DNA of 31,948 bases. It comes from a virus. A program made the position numbers and the translations under genes. The notes under the pieces are model-generated. The model had not been told where the DNA came from and ran no database searches. It saw only the letters and a program-made list of their open reading frames with translations. Positions 7,342 through 29,997 of the stretch are shown piece by piece; position 1 is the stretch's first letter; each line of letters opens with the position of its first letter. Where the stretch lies: IMG/VR virus record IMGVR_UViG_3300043436_001888, positions 1 through 31,948 of that record. One strand, written 5' to 3'.

Positions 7342-9045
7342 ATGAAGAGACTCTTGCTGGTTTTGCTTTTTCCGTTGTGCCTCCTTGGCCAAACGCGTGC
7401 CGTGATTAATACCGGCACAAATCCAAACGACGGAACCGGAGACACGCTTCGGACCTTTGGGCTGAAATCAAACACCAACTTTTCGACGTTGTGGGCTTCG
7501 GTCTACACCAACGGAGTCACAAAGATCGGGACGAACGTCGTTCTAGCAGGGCCAACGGTTTTTGATGGCAACCTGACCAACAGCTTTGACTTTGACGACA
7601 TCAACCAACTCAATCTTGATGGCATAAACACTGAAATTGGAGGGGTTCGTACCCTGTTCCTTGATGGTGGAATCACCACGCTCAGAGGTGTCACGAACCT
7701 AAACATCATCACGCCAGCAGTGACCGCCGGAACAGCGACCACCGGCCAGGCGCTCGTGCTGACCGATGCCGTTGAGGGGACCGTTGAATTCCAGACGGTT
7801 TCCGGTGGCGGCGGTTCGTTCAACCCGACCAACCTCGTGCTCTACGGCGCGTCCCTCACCCTGCCATCAGGCACGACTGCTGAACGCCCCGGAAGCCCGA
7901 CCGCTGGCATGGTGCGGTACAACACGACCACCGGCCGCAATGAGATGTACGAGTCTGGGACGTGGTATCAGCCGGCTCGGGTCGGCGAGTTCGATGGCAA
8001 CTATGTCAGCTTTGCCACGAATCAGTCCCTGACTGTTGGACAGGTCAATCAGGCCCGAGCAAACCTAAAGCGCGAGGATCGAAGTTTCCTGTTGATCAAA
8101 GGCGTAAACACGTGGGGCATTACTTCTTCTGGGCGTACATCAAACATCGTTACGCTGACGCTTAATAAGGCTCACGGCGCAATCAATGGTCAGAAGTTCA
8201 ATGTCGTGTTGGCTACCAACTCGATGCTCAACGCCACCGAGGCCGTGATGACTGTGGGTGCATCAAACATCCTGACCTACACCCTTTCCGGAACCAACGT
8301 CCCAACGGCGACAGAGGGAACCACTGGTACATACACAGTGGGCTGGGAGGTCGTGAACGACAGCGGGCACGCCCCGTGGGGCAACCCGTTCATCCAGGCT
8401 ATCACCACGTCCCAGATCACGATCGCATGGGACACGCCGGCAGCTGGGTCAAAGGTCCTTGCGGCGACCGTTGGCAATCACGCCAACTCCGCCCAGGGCA
8501 AGCTGTGGCCAGTCCTAAACGGTGTCGGGGCGAACACCGTGAATGTCCAGCTTCGCCATCAAGAGACCGTTGGAGGTCGAGTGTACTGGAACGGGACCAC
8601 CACTGGCGGGGGAATCACAGCCAACGCCAACTGGGTCAAGGAAGGTGATTCGACGTCGGCATCATTTGTGGCATCCACTCTGTCCACATTGTTCATCGGT
8701 CACGGCAACAACAAGCTGCCGACGCAAGGATCACGTGGCCCGTCATCGTGGCCTCCTCCAGTGCTGACGGCAAACAGTGGGGCTATCCGCTGCATCCTAC
8801 CAAATTTTCAAGTCAGTCCGTTTACGGTTGCGGCGTACCAGCCAGCCTCCACTGGGTTTTACATGCAGTTTGTAGACTCCTCTGGAACAATCATGGACCA
8901 GACCGCTCTCGAAGCGATCAGCCCGGCATCAGGCCTTCAACTTACATGGTCCCGCACTGTGGACACGCTGATTCAGGACCACACCGCCGTCGACTCGTAC
9001 GGCGCGTTCACAATGTGGTTGGATGTGCAGTTCTTGCTGCCTTGA
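7342..9045 (+). CDS. Tail fibre-like protein with N-terminal signal peptide
   Basis: This is 567 residues. The first 20 residues (MKRLLLVLLFPLCLLGQTRA) look like a Sec signal peptide: two basic residues, a Leu-rich core and an A-x-A-like end. Residues 24-50 hold NPNDGTGDTLRTF and SNTNFSTLW, a motif common near the N-terminus of phage fibre and appendage proteins. Around residues 178-208, ERPGSPTAGMVRYNTTTGRNEMYE is the small fibre domain seen before receptor-binding tips. The rest is Thr/Asn/Gly-rich beta sequence ending WLDVQFLLP. A virion fibre should not need export, so the signal-like start is odd. Alternatives are a virion protein with a hydrophobic anchor or a secreted phage-encoded surface protein. 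There is no Shine-Dalgarno sequence before ATG 7342. Confidence 0.7.
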   Translation: MKRLLLVLLFPLCLLGQTRAVINTGTNPNDGTGDTLRTFGLKSNTNFSTLWASVYTNGVTKIGTNVVLAGPTVFDGNLTNSFDFDDINQLNLDGINTEIGGVRTLFLDGGITTLRGVTNLNIITPAVTAGTATTGQALVLTDAVEGTVEFQTVSGGGGSFNPTNLVLYGASLTLPSGTTAERPGSPTAGMVRYNTTTGRNEMYESGTWYQPARVGEFDGNYVSFATNQSLTVGQVNQARANLKREDRSFLLIKGVNTWGITSSGRTSNIVTLTLNKAHGAINGQKFNVVLATNSMLNATEAVMTVGASNILTYTLSGTNVPTATEGTTGTYTVGWEVVNDSGHAPWGNPFIQAITTSQITIAWDTPAAGSKVLAATVGNHANSAQGKLWPVLNGVGANTVNVQLRHQETVGGRVYWNGTTTGGGITANANWVKEGDSTSASFVASTLSTLFIGHGNNKLPTQGSRGPSSWPPPVLTANSGAIRCILPNFQVSPFTVAAYQPASTGFYMQFVDSSGTIMDQTALEAISPASGLQLTWSRTVDTLIQDHTAVDSYGAFTMWLDVQFLLP

Positions 9046-9192: not shown

Positions 9193-9441
9193 ATGAAGAA
9201 TGAAATCGACGAAAGCACACGCGTAAACCTCCCTCTCAGATTGTTGTGGGCAATCCTGATTGGAGTCGGATTCGGAGGGTTTTGGTTGGCTGCAACATTC
9301 AACCACTTGTCCGAGATCAAGCGGAGCATTGCCAGCATTGAGCGAAAGCTGGAGTCGTTTAACAGTCGGTTGGACGACCACGAGCGTCGATTGATCAAGA
9401 TCGAAGCCAAAACCGGAATCGCAAAACATGACGCTCGCTGA
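9193..9441 (+). CDS. Membrane-anchored coiled-coil protein, i-spanin-like or lysis-associated
   Basis: This 82-residue protein has a polar N-terminus of 17 residues, one membrane segment at about 18-37 (LLWAILIGVGFGGFWLAATF), then a coiled coil (IKRSIASIERKLESFNSRLDDHERRL) to the end. The topology, N-in with a periplasmic coiled coil, is that of an inner-membrane spanin; XhlA-like phage proteins have the reverse order. It overlaps the holin by 14 bp and is two genes upstream of a lipoprotein, matching a lysis cassette. The spanin role is inferred from topology and neighbours only. Confidence 0.6.
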   Translation: MKNEIDESTRVNLPLRLLWAILIGVGFGGFWLAATFNHLSEIKRSIASIERKLESFNSRLDDHERRLIKIEAKTGIAKHDAR

Positions 9442-9703
9442 AGCAATCCCGCTGGCGACCACGGCAAGCCTAGGCCTCGGAGCCTTGGCTAAGTCTTGGC
9501 CGAAGTTTCCAAACGCATACATCCCGACGCTGGCTGCGGTTGCTGGCGCTCTTCTGGTGCCCGCGCTGTGCGGCTGGGATGCGTTGAACATCGTCTCAGG
9601 CTTTGTCGCTGGCCTCGGAGCAACCGGCATTCACCAGGGCGTCAAGGGCGCAGCGGACGACGTTAAGCGTCGGACGGGCAACACCGAGACCATCAAGAAA
9701 TGA
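9428..9703 (+). CDS. Holin
   Basis: This 91-residue protein has two or three hydrophobic segments: about residues 5-20 (EAIPLATTASLGLGAL), 30-50 (IPTLAAVAGALLVPALCGW) and 52-72 (LNIVSGFVAGLGATGIHQG). A charged C-terminal tail, DDVKRRTGNTETIKK, follows. Size, segment layout and tail are those of class I/II holins, which form lesions in the inner membrane and time lysis. It starts within the upstream membrane protein gene and its stop overlaps the lipoprotein start as ATGA. Confidence 0.7.
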   Translation: MTLAEAIPLATTASLGLGALAKSWPKFPNAYIPTLAAVAGALLVPALCGWDALNIVSGFVAGLGATGIHQGVKGAADDVKRRTGNTETIKK

Positions 9704-9987
9704 AACGCATTGCACTGATTGTAGCGCTAGCCATGGCTGGCTGCGCTAGATTTAAGACCACTCAGATCGACGAACGAAAGGCACCAGATGGACAGATTAC
9801 CAAGGTCAGCACGATCGTCTCGGCTTCAACGCTCTTCACGTCTCGGTCGCAACTCGCAAACTTCAAAGCCAGCCAAACCGAAAAGCAGCAAGGAGCAAGC
9901 GTCGGAAGCCTCGCCCAGGAATCCAGCGGCACCAATGCCGTCCGAGCCCTTGAAGCCCTTGACTCCATTCTCGGGAAGATCCGCTAG
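9700..9987 (+). CDS. Small lipoprotein, o-spanin candidate
   Basis: This 95-residue protein has a lipoprotein signal: MKRIALIVALAMAGC, with lipobox L-A-M-A-G-C (AMAG before Cys15). The mature part of about 80 residues is Ser/Thr/Gln-rich and ends in a short helix, ALEALDSILGKIR. Small outer-membrane lipoproteins next to a holin and an inner-membrane coiled-coil protein are usually o-spanins, which fuse inner and outer membranes at lysis. It lacks the Pro-rich composition of lambda Rz1. ATGA overlap with the holin gene. If correct, the host has an outer membrane. Confidence 0.65.
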   Translation: MKRIALIVALAMAGCARFKTTQIDERKAPDGQITKVSTIVSASTLFTSRSQLANFKASQTEKQQGASVGSLAQESSGTNAVRALEALDSILGKIR

Positions 9988-17039: not shown

Positions 17040-17969
17040 ATGGCCATTTTCACATTTCTCGCCAAGCTCGGCCTCGACACGACGGACTTTCAGACCGGAA
17101 TTAAGCGTGCGCAATCGTCCGCGTCTGGTCTCGGCAAGGGCATTTCGGAAAGCCTGAAGCGTGAGAACGACAGCATCAAGGGCGCGCTCGCCGGGATGTT
17201 TACTGTGTCGGCTGCCAAGTCCTACTTCGGCGAGCTAAAGAACATCGTCGGAGAAATCAAGGACATGTCGGAACTGCTGGAGATTTCGACCGACGAAGTC
17301 CAGCGGTTGCAGAAGGCGGCGGAAAGCTCCGGGCAAAGTTTCAAAGTCGTTGTCGGAGCGTTTCAGAAGATCGAGCAGATGAAGGCTCAAGCGCTTACCG
17401 GAGACGAGCGTGCCAATCGCATTTTTGGAATGCTTGGAATCAACCCAGAGTCATCCTCAATGGACATCATGCAGAGGGCTATAAAGTCTTCTGGAGGATC
17501 AGCGAAAGAAAGTGCCGCAGCATTTGAGCTTCTTGGTCGCAAAGTCGGCAATCTTCGGCTCGTTGTCGACGAGTTGAATCAAATGGGAGACGTAAAGACA
17601 ATCAGCGAAGGCGACATTCAAACTATTGACGACAACGTCAAAAAGTTTGAAGCAGCGTTTCGCGAGTTCATGATTGCTGGCGCTCCGATTGCAACGGCAT
17701 TGATCCAAGGCCTAACCGCGCTGCTGAAACTGTTTAGTACGGATGTAAAAACAGTGTCTGCGCTAGATGTTGGATTTGGAAAAGCCATTGAAATGAATGC
17801 CGCGTCATTTCTCGGTTTGAAAAATGAAGAAGGGCGCAAATATGCTGCGCTGCCGCTGCCTGAAAACCGAACCAAGCAGGCTACCGAAGACTCAACGCCT
17901 CTCTTGATGCGAATCGCCAAAGCGAACGAAGACTTGCTTCAGTCGTTCACGACTCACGTCGATCAATGA
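17040..17969 (+). CDS. Tape measure protein, unusually short
   Basis: This 309-residue protein has an N-terminus typical of tape measure proteins: MAIFTFLAKLGLDTTDFQTG, IKRAQSSASGLGKGIS, then KDMSELLEISTDEVQRLQKA with alternating helices. A hydrophobic segment lies near residues 215-235 (FREFMIAGAPIATALIQGLT). Tape measure length sets tail length at about 0.15 nm per residue, so about 46 nm is expected, against roughly 135-150 nm for lambda with 853 residues. Most of the long coiled-coil middle is missing, yet both the start and the hydrophobic part are intact. No frameshift or stop that splits a longer gene is seen; the next gene overlaps by ATGA. Confidence 0.75.
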   Translation: MAIFTFLAKLGLDTTDFQTGIKRAQSSASGLGKGISESLKRENDSIKGALAGMFTVSAAKSYFGELKNIVGEIKDMSELLEISTDEVQRLQKAAESSGQSFKVVVGAFQKIEQMKAQALTGDERANRIFGMLGINPESSSMDIMQRAIKSSGGSAKESAAAFELLGRKVGNLRLVVDELNQMGDVKTISEGDIQTIDDNVKKFEAAFREFMIAGAPIATALIQGLTALLKLFSTDVKTVSALDVGFGKAIEMNAASFLGLKNEEGRKYAALPLPENRTKQATEDSTPLLMRIAKANEDLLQSFTTHVDQ

Positions 17970-18778
17970 GCGCATATACTCAAGGCTCGCCATCGTTTGT
18001 CTCATCCGGCATCACGCTGGTCTCGACGCGCCCAGTCTTTGACCAAGGCAACGGCAACACGTGGGAATACATTTACGAGGGAACCGCCGCAGGCATTGCG
18101 ACGCAGGCCGCAGACATGCAGGCGGCTGGAGCCAGGACGACGGTAGATAACAGTGGTCCGGTCTCGCGCCTTGTCGCGTCATTCGTCCGTGATCCAACGC
18201 AACCGGCGGCGGCTGAGACCACTTTCGACACTTGGTCGATCTCACAGGAGGAGTACCAGGTGAGCCTGTTCTCAATGGATCGCGCCGTTGATGAGGCCCA
18301 AGGCTACGTCAGCAAAGCGCAGTACCGGTCAGACATTGAGGAGGCGGCACGCGGAGGCGAGTCTTACCCGCTCGATCAGACCCAATACCCGGTTGGTTGG
18401 TACATCTACAATCTGCTTTCCCAAGGCATCGACACTTACCCGCGTGGAATGCCGGTGCTTAACCGCAACCGCACGTATTCACTGACCTACACCGGAACGC
18501 CTCATCGGGTCGTGACGCAGGGTCTGGTCTACACGCGGGCAGCGTTGCTGCGTGACTTTGGAATCATTTCCCCGTTGTCCGAACGCATCCCACTGGATCC
18601 TGCTGAAACTCTGCCGGAGGGTTTTGTTTGGGGATGGTATCTATCGCGTCAGGACTTCAGTTATCAGCGGGAACGAAGCGCGCTTAAGGTCACCGAAAAC
18701 CTCGGATGGCGCTTTGGTAGTTGGAACGCGTGGCCTGAGGGCTCTGCTCTGCAAGGCATCTATCGACTGATCCAATGA
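17966..18778 (+). CDS. Tail protein of unknown type
   Basis: This 270-residue, Tyr/Gly/Ser-rich protein is mostly predicted beta with one helical stretch (MDRAVDEAQGYVSKAQYRSD). It contains FDQGNGNTWEYIYEGTAAG and a C-terminal ENLGWRFGSWNAWPEG. It follows the tape measure directly with ATGA overlap, where distal-tail or baseplate-hub proteins lie in siphoviruses. No family signature is recognised, so distal-tail role is only positional. Confidence 0.5.
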   Translation: MSAYTQGSPSFVSSGITLVSTRPVFDQGNGNTWEYIYEGTAAGIATQAADMQAAGARTTVDNSGPVSRLVASFVRDPTQPAAAETTFDTWSISQEEYQVSLFSMDRAVDEAQGYVSKAQYRSDIEEAARGGESYPLDQTQYPVGWYIYNLLSQGIDTYPRGMPVLNRNRTYSLTYTGTPHRVVTQGLVYTRAALLRDFGIISPLSERIPLDPAETLPEGFVWGWYLSRQDFSYQRERSALKVTENLGWRFGSWNAWPEGSALQGIYRLIQ

Positions 18779-18981: not shown

Positions 18982-19368
18982 ATGGCAAACGAGATCACTA
19001 TCAGCTTGTCGATTTCGGCGAGCAAAAGCGGGGCTTCCGTCAACAGTGTGGGCGCAACTGGTCCGGCTACTGCGTCCTACGACATGACGGGTGCCGACAT
19101 GAGTTCTGGAACGGTCGCGACTTCCACGACAACCGCCGCCTTGAGCGTCGGGGCTGTCACCGCGCCTTACCGGATCTACCTCTGCAACCTGTCGACGACC
19201 TCCGGCGAGGATGTCCGCATTGGAAATGCAAACGCTGACCCGATCACGTCGCTCGTGTCGACGTTGGCTCCAGGAGACGAGTGCTTTCTGGTCGTTCCGT
19301 CGGGCACGCTGTACGTTGAAAGCGCGGCGGGCACGCCAAACCTTTTCTACGTCGCAGTCGAGAAGTAA
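18982..19368 (+). CDS. Beta-rich tail-region protein
   Basis: This 128-residue, Ser/Thr/Ala-rich protein has regular strands (ITISLSISASKSG, PYRIYLCNLSTTSGEDVRIG, and a C-terminal FLVVPSGTLYVESAAGTPNL). The pattern is that of a jelly-roll or Ig-like virion surface module and of minor tail or decoration proteins. It starts 3 bp after the previous stop and precedes the largest gene. Its specific role is not recognised. Confidence 0.5.
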   Translation: MANEITISLSISASKSGASVNSVGATGPATASYDMTGADMSSGTVATSTTTAALSVGAVTAPYRIYLCNLSTTSGEDVRIGNANADPITSLVSTLAPGDECFLVVPSGTLYVESAAGTPNLFYVAVEK

Positions 19369-22976: not shown

Positions 22977-23102
22977 GAGGATCATCCCGAAATCTGTTTC
23001 GTGATCATCCGCAGGACTACCGGGAATACCGCGCTAGCTGAGTGTTTGCACCCGCGCAACTCCAATCTTGCATGCACGCAATCCTGTAGTCATGGTCCGC
23101 CC
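22977..23102 (+). promoter_or_regulatory. Regulatory region upstream of HTH gene
   Basis: This 126-bp gap is dense in short symmetries. Direct repeats GATCATCC (22980-22987 and 23003-23010) flank an inverted repeat CGAAA-TCTG-TTTCG (22988-23001). TCATCCGCAGGA occurs at 22940-22951 and again at 23005-23016. A near-palindrome TTGCACCCGCGCAA lies at 23046-23059, and CATGG-tccgc-CCATG (23091-23105) covers the ATG. No strong -10 box is visible. Confidence 0.5.
23046..23059. promoter_or_regulatory. Candidate operator 1 (TTGC...GCAA)
   Basis: TTGCACCCGCGCAA differs at two positions from the site at 23307-23320 (TTGCGTCCGCGCAA). It lies 43 bp before the HTH gene. TTGCAC can double as a -35 box. Recognition by the adjacent HTH protein is inference. 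Confidence 0.45.
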
Positions 23103-23303
23103 ATGCATGATTTTCGACGAGATTTGCGCGCAATCCGCGATCGCCTGGCCAAACAGGACGTGAGCATTCAGGACTGGGCTGCGGCTGCGGACGTGTCCCA
23201 TACAACCCTCTGGCGCATTCTGGAGCGCGGGCAGACGCCTAGCGTCAGCACGTACCAAGCGTTGATTTTCGCCGAAAAGAAATTTGCGCCGATGCAAAAA
23301 TAG
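23103..23303 (+). CDS. HTH transcriptional regulator, Cro/XRE-like
   Basis: This is about 66 residues from ATG 23103; the longer frame to 23001 has a poor composition and crosses the operator-like repeats. The protein is DLRAIRDRLAKQDVSIQDW, then a helix-turn-helix AADVSHTTLWRILERGQTP, then a final helix. This is the minimal helix-turn-helix of small Cro-like repressors. It is the only compact repressor-like gene here. Palindromes related to TTGC...GCAA lie before it, within its start (TTGCGCGCAA at 23124-23133) and after it, so autoregulation and control of the following early genes is plausible. No antirepressor or integrase is seen nearby. Confidence 0.7.
   Translation: MHDFRRDLRAIRDRLAKQDVSIQDWAAAADVSHTTLWRILERGQTPSVSTYQALIFAEKKFAPMQK
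23124..23133. promoter_or_regulatory. Candidate operator 2 inside HTH gene
   Basis: TTGCGCGCAA is a perfect 10-bp palindrome with the same TTGC/GCAA half-sites as the two flanking sites. It is 21 bp into the regulator gene. It may be a third site of a cooperative set, or a chance match in G+C-rich coding DNA. Confidence 0.35.
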
Positions 23304-27857: not shown

Positions 27858-28261
27858 GCCATATTGGTGACGGCAACAAAATGGTGAGCGACACGCCCAG
27901 GACGGATTGGCAGCTTGATGTATCTCGAAAATTCGGATGCTACCAACCGTGGATCGCTCCAAGTTTTGCCCGCCAACTGGAGCGCGAGCTTGCCCGATGC
28001 AACAACCTATACCGGAAGCTGGATGTTCACTCGTTGGGTCTGTGCGATATTATTCGCAAACTGGAGAGTGAGCTTCAGGAGGCCAACGAGCGAATCCGAC
28101 TACTCATCGCCGAGCGGGACACGGCGAGGATGCAGGCAGACCAGAACTGGAAGCTGCGGGAGGAGTTCACGGCGTTGCTTGGCACGGATGATGTGAAGGA
28201 AGCGGTGCGTAAGTTGAAGCGATGGAAGGCGCAAAAGATTTCAACAACACAAACCAAATGA
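27854..28261 (+). CDS. Coiled-coil hypothetical protein
   Basis: This is 135 residues from ATG 27854 (ATGA); an internal Met at 27881 is an alternative. RQLERELARCNNLYRKLD and a second coil, IIRKLESELQEANERIRLL, make up most of the protein, with WKLREEFTALLGTDDVKEAV toward the end. It shares the RQLERELA pattern with the genes above. It may be a structural or regulatory adaptor; no function is recognised. Confidence 0.6.
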   Translation: MSHIGDGNKMVSDTPRTDWQLDVSRKFGCYQPWIAPSFARQLERELARCNNLYRKLDVHSLGLCDIIRKLESELQEANERIRLLIAERDTARMQADQNWKLREEFTALLGTDDVKEAVRKLKRWKAQKISTTQTK

Positions 28262-28827
28262 ACAACACTATGAGTATTGAGGAGTTCTGTGGCCTGCACG
28301 ATGCGTGTGCTGATGGTCGCAAGTGGGCGTTGGCAAACTGCGTGTCGATGGAGGATGCGTGGGCGAAGCTGAAGCATGAGTGGCTGTTATGGGTTGCGAC
28401 GCGCCCGGGTGTGCTGACGCAGCGCGAGTTGCGGAAGTTTGCCGTGTGGTGTGCGCGACAGGTGCAGCATCTGATGACCGATCCGCGCAGTGTGGCTGCG
28501 TTGGATGTGGCGGAGAGACATGCTGAAGGGTTGGCAACGGATGAGGAGTTGGCTGCTGCGAGGGCTGCGGGGGTTGCTGCGTGGGCTGCTGCGAGGGCTG
28601 CGGGGGATGCTACGGGGGCTGCGGGGGTTGCTGCGTGGGCTGCGGGGGATGCTACGGGGGCTGCGGGGGTTGCTGCGTGGGCTGCGGGGGTTGCTGCGTG
28701 GGCTGCTGCGTGGGCTGCTGCGGGGGCTGTGAGGGTTGCTGCGAGGGCTGCTGCGAATGCTGCGGAGGATGCACAAGCAGCGTGGTTGCGGGAAAACACG
28801 AAGCCGAATTTTGGGAAAACCAAATGA
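28258..28827 (+). CDS. Ala-rich heptad-repeat protein
   Basis: This is 189 residues. The N-terminal 95 residues contain conserved features seen in other phage proteins of this kind ([20 protein letters not shown], then [20 protein letters not shown] and [20 protein letters not shown], with His and Cys residues). The C-terminal half is a run of 7-residue repeats ([21 protein letters not shown]), which would fold as a long Ala helix. This type is often labelled putative immunity protein, but without evidence I can cite. It ends [23 protein letters not shown] overlaps at both ends. Confidence 0.65.
28596..28724 (+). repeat. 21-bp tandem repeats, G-rich, within Ala-rich gene
   Basis: Five adjoining 21-bp units run from 28596 to 28700. 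Two types alternate, one beginning GGCTGCGGGGGATGC and one beginning GGCTGCGGGGGTTGC, followed by two 12-bp partial units. Each encodes 7 residues. The + strand carries many runs of three or more G, with possible G-quadruplex structures. Repeats this exact should vary in copy number by slippage. Confidence 0.85.
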
Positions 28828-29420
28828 ACAACATGAAGAACATGAAGAAGACACTGATGGCAATGATGGTGGCCTACACAACGCAGGCCGCGACGGTGGT
28901 TCACACCGTGGTAATCAACCCGACGCTGACGGACTGGTCGGTTACCAACCGGGTCCCGCAGTTTGATGCGCGATTGGGCAAGCTGCGCTCCGTCCAGGTG
29001 ACGGTGGATGCTGAGGCTGCTGGCCAGTCGCAGTTCGTGAGCCTCGACCGAGGATGGCGGATTCCGGTGGATCTGGCGGTGACGAACTCGGTGTCGGTGC
29101 GGGTAGGTACGCTGGCGGCTGGTGAGTCGGTTGCGAGTGTTGCGAGGTATGTGCCCGCGTTTGGCGCAACCAACGTGACACCGTTCTCGGTGGTGTTGGC
29201 TGGCGCGGCATCCACCAATCGCAACCTCGGCGCGTGGATTGGGACGAACACGGTGCCGGTGGTTACGCGGTCCAGTGCGCGGACGTGGTACAGCGGTCCG
29301 GGTGATTACCAATTGGCGTGGCGCACGGCAGCGAGCGCGGTGGCTACGGTGGCCTACACGTTCGACGGACGCTGTGAGGACGAAGACAAGGACTCCGACA
29401 AGGACAAGGATGGACGATGA
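28824..29420 (+). CDS. Secreted choice-of-anchor E-like protein with acidic tail
   Basis: This is 198 residues from ATG 28824 (ATGA with the previous gene). A signal peptide covers residues 1-23 ([20 protein letters not shown], cut near Ala23). The mature part has [20 protein letters not shown] at residues 44-63, then [20 protein letters not shown] and later strands to about 180. The QFD-x3-G-x-L-x2-V motif with following strands is the hallmark of choice-of-anchor E domains, known in PEP-CTERM/sorting-anchored proteins of Verrucomicrobia and Planctomycetes. No anchoring helix is present; instead the end is [14 protein letters not shown]. In a phage this looks like a moron for an exported or cell-surface protein. 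The role is not recognised; the family is a pattern-based judgement. Confidence 0.6.
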
Positions 29421-29563
29421 ACAAAACCTGCGACTTCTGCGGATCGTGCGTTGCAACCATCGCCGCATCGTTTGCCGACTTTGAGTGCGGAACGACCTGG
29501 TCCGAGATCGATGGTTGGGAACGATCCATGCGATGCCGCGAGGCAGCAAAGGGGGATGAGTGA
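29417..29563 (+). CDS. 48-residue Cys-rich protein
   Basis: A short open frame from ATG 29417 (ATGA coupling) with [11 protein letters not shown] at the start (C5, C8, C11), C24 and C40. Three close Cys plus two spaced ones suggest a zinc ribbon. It ends with a GTGA overlap to rusA. Function unknown. Confidence 0.6.
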
Positions 29564-29997
29564 AATCCCTGTCCGTCTTTGTCCCTGGGCTACCCGTTGG
29601 CCAACCAAGACCTCGGGCAACGTCGTTCGGTGGTCGTGCTCGGATGTACGATCCGGGCACCAGCAACGAATGGAAGGCTTGCGTCATCCATGCAGTGCGA
29701 GGGAATGCTGGATTGTTCCCGGCGGGCATCCCGGTGCGGTGTGATCTGACGTTCTTTCTGCCGAGGCCCAAGGCTCACTACGGGAGCGGGAAGAACGCGA
29801 GCGTGCTGAAGGGATCGGCTCCAACGCGGCCCACTGGAAAACCGGATAGGGACAACTTGGAGAAGGCTGTGCTGGATGCGCTTACGTCCGCTGGAATCTG
29901 GCACGATGATTCACAAGTCACCGATGGGCGGCTGCGGAAACGGTATGCCCAACTGAACACGGGATGTGAGGTCAGAATCGCGGAGGATTTGGAATGA
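29560..29997 (+). CDS. rusA: Holliday junction resolvase RusA
   Basis: This 145-residue protein is a dimeric nuclease that cuts four-way junctions. RusA motifs are visible: GLPVGQPRPR near the N-terminus, GKPDRDNLEKAVLDAL near residues 92-107 with the two Asp metal ligands, and WHDDSQV at about 113-119 with the third acidic cluster. Length is slightly above E. coli RusA (120). Start GTG 29560. The phage can thus resolve junctions made by the RecT/nuclease pathway before packaging. Confidence 0.9.
   Translation: MKSLSVFVPGLPVGQPRPRATSFGGRARMYDPGTSNEWKACVIHAVRGNAGLFPAGIPVRCDLTFFLPRPKAHYGSGKNASVLKGSAPTRPTGKPDRDNLEKAVLDALTSAGIWHDDSQVTDGRLRKRYAQLNTGCEVRIAEDLE

Follow-up and report, generated by a model that had tools for sequence, protein, structure and literature searches.

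A predicted exported choice-of-anchor E protein in a phage genome

What use might a phage have for a predicted exported protein carrying a choice-of-anchor E domain? The question is raised by a gene, here called chE, on the plus strand of the IMG/VR virus record IMGVR_UViG_3300043436_001888, of which we analyzed positions 1–31,948 (the window). The gene occupies 28824–29420, comprising an ORF at 28824–29417 and a stop codon at 29418–29420, and its product is 198 amino acids long. A sequence-only reading of this DNA had noted a resemblance to choice-of-anchor E proteins, and a profile search bore this out: NCBIfam family NF033208 (choice-of-anchor E) matched residues 31–180 with 45.1 bits (E 1.3e-11), compared with a curated cut-off of 23.8 bits. 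An NCBIfam scan matched the same family to all nine members of our alignment A1. Because the score exceeded the cut-off by this much and every aligned member matched, we regard the sequence match as beyond chance. Relatives of chE occurred in 11 IMG/VR records; when the records were searched in six frames, nine of the 11 relatives scored above the cut-off, the remaining two being contig-end fragments. In the constant parts of the gene, dN/dS was 0.05–0.5 for nearly all pairs, which indicates that chE is protein-coding and subject to purifying selection.

PHROGs, INPHARED phages and PLSDB plasmids contained no match to chE, a PDB sequence search gave no significant match, and a Pfam search gave nothing significant, with DUF3311 alone appearing at an E value of 0.011, below its cut-off. 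The homologs sought in phage and bacterial genomes were thus found on the phage side, in the 11 IMG/VR records; two narrow scans of bacterial genomes for short exact motifs, one built from the chE alignment and the other from the alignment of a 1126-amino-acid putative tail/fibre protein, found no relative of either, a weak negative in each case. The predicted fold is mostly beta, with mean pLDDT values (58 and 51 in two predictions) too poor to use, and searching with these low-confidence models (Foldseek and VIA-align) was uninformative, returning viral capsids and many beta-sandwich proteins without discrimination. Our literature search found no paper using the name choice-of-anchor E, and we know of no function for the proteins that bear it.

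The protein begins with a signal-peptide-like segment (residues 1–23, about 22 residues; 28824–28892, plus strand), as had been proposed, for which a simple hydrophobicity and cleavage-motif test, a heuristic, places the likely cleavage at TQA/A. This feature is kept in relatives, and the N terminus at locus L005 is quite different from that of the window yet also signal-peptide-like (MKKLVYVGMVLASAVSA). The conserved N-terminal part of the domain follows (28893–29009, plus strand; dN/dS 0.05–0.39 where estimable in alignment A1). The window protein has the motif QFD-x3-G-x-L-x2-V that had been read as the start of the fold; its QFD-x3-G-x-L portion is shared by all relatives covering that stretch. 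After a variable central segment come the conserved C-terminal part of the domain (29199–29372, plus strand), recognizable by its invariant columns, and a lone Cys followed by an acidic Asp/Lys tail (29373–29417, plus strand), which recurs in every relative whose sequence extends to the C terminus. The pI of the tail is 4.2, compared with 10.1 for the domain.

A C-terminal anchor (PEP-CTERM or LPXTG) is typical of the choice-of-anchor group, although the domain model does not require one. We found no PEP-CTERM motif, no LPXTG motif and no hydrophobic stretch at the C terminus of chE or of its relatives, in agreement with the earlier suggestion that the Asp/Lys tail stands in place of a sorting anchor. 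Because the tail has no such feature, we class chE from its sequence as a carrier of the choice-of-anchor E domain and not as an anchored surface protein.

Position in a putative early operon

The ATGA coupling that had been described was present at both ends of chE. The start of the gene overlaps the end of the upstream gene at 28824–28827, and a 48-amino-acid ORF (29417–29563, plus strand) starts at the ATGA that ends chE, at 29417–29420. The upstream gene (28222–28827, plus strand) encodes an Ala-rich repeat protein (phrog_18326) that has no match in some relatives; its repeats lie at 28540–28770, and the chE frame is open through them, where it would read as Cys/Gly-rich. Downstream of the 48-amino-acid ORF lies a gene for a RusA-like resolvase (29560–29997, plus strand). 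Structural genes fill about 4.5–22.8 kb, and chE lies on the recombination/replication side of the genome, co-directional with recT, an exonuclease gene, rusA and ssb (the last assigned by sequence). The ATGA coupling and this shared direction suggest that chE is expressed early. Searches for phage integrase (PF00589) and resolvase (PF00239) found no match in nine records including the window, which are possibly incomplete, and because neither was found the phages carrying chE are likely to be virulent.

Distribution among phages with unrelated structural genes

The phages carrying chE fall into at least three groups with unrelated structural genes. Group I has structural genes like those of the window (G006, G007 and G008, with chE loci L007, L008 and L009, respectively). 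Group II (G002–G005 and G009–G011) has an unrelated terminase and a 626-amino-acid portal; G002 was placed here on the basis of its portal, and G005 because it matched G004. Group III (G001) has yet another terminase. The gene was present in all four group I phages whose contigs cover the locus (that of G013 ends just before it) and upstream of RusA in six of six loci where RusA was at least 92% identical to that of the window. More distant cousins, with RusA at 72–75% identity or portal at 87–90%, had no chE in the stretches examined. Thus, chE is an accessory gene confined to a limited set of phages. The group II portal gene (L066, 5972–7849) matched 246 stretches in IMG/VR, indicating an abundant phage group, and within it chE was found only in the closest subclade.

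Between groups with unrelated structural genes, rusA (29560–29997 in the window; 2562–2996 in L066) is 92–95% identical, a sign of recent exchange and of a shared host, and the phages carrying chE probably do share one. The idea that this gene hints at the host, put forward along with the suggestion that bacterial surface proteins of this kind occur in Verrucomicrobia and Planctomycetes, held up weakly, through distant matches of other proteins: the best named match of both the large terminase subunit (24% identity over 96%) and the portal (28% over 96%) was Verrucomicrobia phage P8625, and Akkermansia phage Moulinsart also matched both. These distant matches lend a verrucomicrobial host weak support.

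Constant ends and a central cassette in four types

Aligning the relatives divided the protein into constant regions (the signal region, the N-terminal 40 and C-terminal 60 residues of the mature domain, and the tail) and a variable central cassette of about 63 residues (about residues 63–125; 29010–29198, plus strand), which occurs in four divergent types. Type A comprises the window and L002; type B, L003–L006 and L012; type C, L007, L008 and L011; and type D, L009 and L010. The mature domain is 160 residues long in all types except D (159). The cassette is bounded by abrupt changes in DNA identity. Comparing the window with L008 in 10-codon steps gave 90, 83, 90 and 100% identity on the N-terminal side, 43, 29, 70, 50, 27 and 40% in the center, and 83, 83, 80, 100, 90 and 93% on the C-terminal side, which is 83–100% before the cassette, 27–70% inside it and 80–100% after it.

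Three of the types span two phage groups apiece: type A was found in the window and in G001, type C in both G006/G007 and G010, and type D in G008 and G009. Conversely, group II phages whose structural genes are almost identical carry types B, C and D, which means that cassette type is not simply matched to the virion of the phage carrying it. The spread of chE over at least three structurally unrelated groups, with constant ends and a center in four types, is new here.

We compared the evolution of the cassette and its flanks in eight distinct genes that were full-length or nearly so. Between the two type A genes (window and L002), the synonymous difference was 0.11 in the center and 0.33–0.37 in the flanks, and between L007 and L008, both of type C, it was 0.08 and 0.26–0.32, respectively. 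The type D pair (L009 and L010) had the reverse pattern, with 0.42 in the center and 0.27–0.28 in the flanks. Between types, about 32–59% of nonsynonymous sites differed in the center, compared with mostly 0.03–0.31 in the flanks. Within the older type pairs, dN/dS of the center was 0.19 (L003/L005) and 0.15 (L009/L010), which indicates purifying selection. The cassette data rejected the flank tree (AU test, p about 2e-60); the flank data did not reject the cassette tree (p 0.25). Exchange of the center is therefore likely, because its boundaries are sharp and the ages of center and flanks are unequal, and not because of tree conflict alone.

Other parts of these genomes are mosaic as well. 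A short tape-measure-like protein (17040–17969) has a conserved N terminus followed by three divergent types in group I, and its downstream neighbor (17966–18778) is 97–100% identical. Cassette and tape-measure types co-vary in four phages, a pattern that has a chance of about 1 in 6 and that other genes share, among them g12 (7342–9045) and a small HTH gene (23001–23303). We therefore do not claim that the cassette is matched to the tape measure protein, a pairing that is also weakened by the occurrence of types B, C and D alongside near-identical structural genes in group II. The 567-amino-acid protein encoded at 7342–9045 contains a fibre-like motif (NDGTGDTLRTFGLKSNTNF) and starts with a strong signal-peptide-like segment (MKRLLLVLLFPLCLLGQTRA), which is unusual for a structural protein.

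A proposed role at the envelope of infected cells

A center that is swapped in discrete types suggests recognition of a variable target, carried by the host or by rival phages. Because the types are common to unrelated phages, the partner would be shared and lie outside the virion, as a component of the host surface or as competing phages in the host. Our leading proposal, which we hold tentatively, is that chE is an exported recognition protein acting in discrete types at the infected cell's envelope, with superinfection exclusion by a virulent phage as its most likely role. The infected cell would export chE early in infection without fixing it by a sorting anchor. The constant scaffold would present the central segment, in at least four types that move between unrelated phages, and its variable face would, we infer, carry out recognition. 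Placed in the envelope, chE would recognize its target type-specifically and prevent adsorption or injection by other phages. More speculatively, dimerization or electrostatic retention there might be aided by the lone Cys and the charged tail. Exclusion is in keeping with the location in an early operon, with the export signal and with a center swapped by type. Against it, most exclusion proteins known so far are lipoproteins or bound to the membrane, whereas chE has neither a lipobox nor a membrane anchor. A broader version, which we consider rather improbable as a whole, is that virulent phages of one host clade draw on a shared pool of exported recognition proteins whose cassette is exchanged and whose long-lived types make up an exclusion code or a host-surface code.

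The main competitor, which we judge somewhat unlikely and rank next after exclusion, is that chE binds a variable component of the host surface or matrix, such as a polysaccharide or surface protein, and alters adhesion, biofilm or progeny release while leaving other phages unaffected, in which case its types would follow host surface types. A shared host would account for the same types appearing in unrelated groups that have in common accessory genes and a rusA of 92–95% identity, and choice-of-anchor E is a family of bacterial surface proteins. However, the two motif scans of bacterial genomes revealed no host partner or homolog, and the models contained no known binding fold at usable confidence.

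Three further readings seem improbable to us. The cassette types could reflect ordinary mosaicism, generated by phage recombinases and subsequent divergence without selection for diversity; these phages do encode RecT and an exonuclease, and the tape measure gene, 18982–19368 and 9700–9987 are also mosaic. Arguing against this origin are the much greater nonsynonymous divergence of the center than of the flanks and the purifying selection on the center in two old type pairs, as drift alone is not expected to give such long-lived discrete types. Quite doubtful, too, is a periplasmic regulator of lysis timing, of the sort represented by T4 RI, or a protein that inhibits a host envelope enzyme. 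Predicted export without an anchor would suit either role, as would the Cys kept in all relatives reaching the C terminus, but chE is not near the holin gene (9428–9703), and the 95–97% conservation of the holin among phages that carry three different types of cassette makes a holin partner specific to type unlikely. Finally, a virion component (a decoration or adhesion protein) whose N terminus happens to be hydrophobic has little to recommend it: the low-confidence models resemble beta-sandwich capsid-like folds but are too poor to weigh, and chE lies a long way from the structural block, within a replication/recombination operon, passes between phages whose virions are unrelated, and shows an independent and typical signal peptide at L005.

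Comparison with known systems

Superinfection exclusion, our preferred reading, can be set beside several known systems. The closest by sequence is the NF033208 family itself, with which chE has in common the domain, above the cut-off, and an export signal as judged from sequence. It differs in being phage-encoded, in having a Cys-Asp/Lys tail where a sorting anchor would be, and in the swapped types of its central third. An anchorless phage version with mapped constant and swapped parts offers a direct handle on what the choice-of-anchor E domain binds. The choice-of-anchor name has also been given to another phage protein, in a choice-of-anchor A-like tail fibre region of a soda-lake phage (PMC5135824), which belongs to a different family and adjoins a tail fibre gene, in contrast to a small, predicted early exported protein.

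In function, the proposal most resembles two systems that are analogies and not relatives. Ltp of phage TP-J34 is an exported lipoprotein that excludes phages via the tape measure protein (PMC11480721). Like chE, whose export is predicted, the Ltp proteins of Streptococcus thermophilus and Lactococcus lactis phages (PMC11480721, PMC3952083) are small exported phage proteins encoded apart from the virion genes, and they act outside the membrane, by charge, on the incoming tape measure protein; unlike chE, they are lipoproteins with another domain, and they come from temperate phages. If chE does exclude phages, it would be a soluble exclusion protein, in discrete types, common to unrelated virulent phages. 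Discrete types are the feature that chE has in common with CwpV of Clostridium difficile, a bacterial surface protein that blocks injection of phage DNA and whose C-terminal part comes in five types (PMC4737114). Both are exported, in the case of chE by prediction, whereas CwpV is bacterial, phase-variable and anchored to the cell wall, with its variability in C-terminal repeats.
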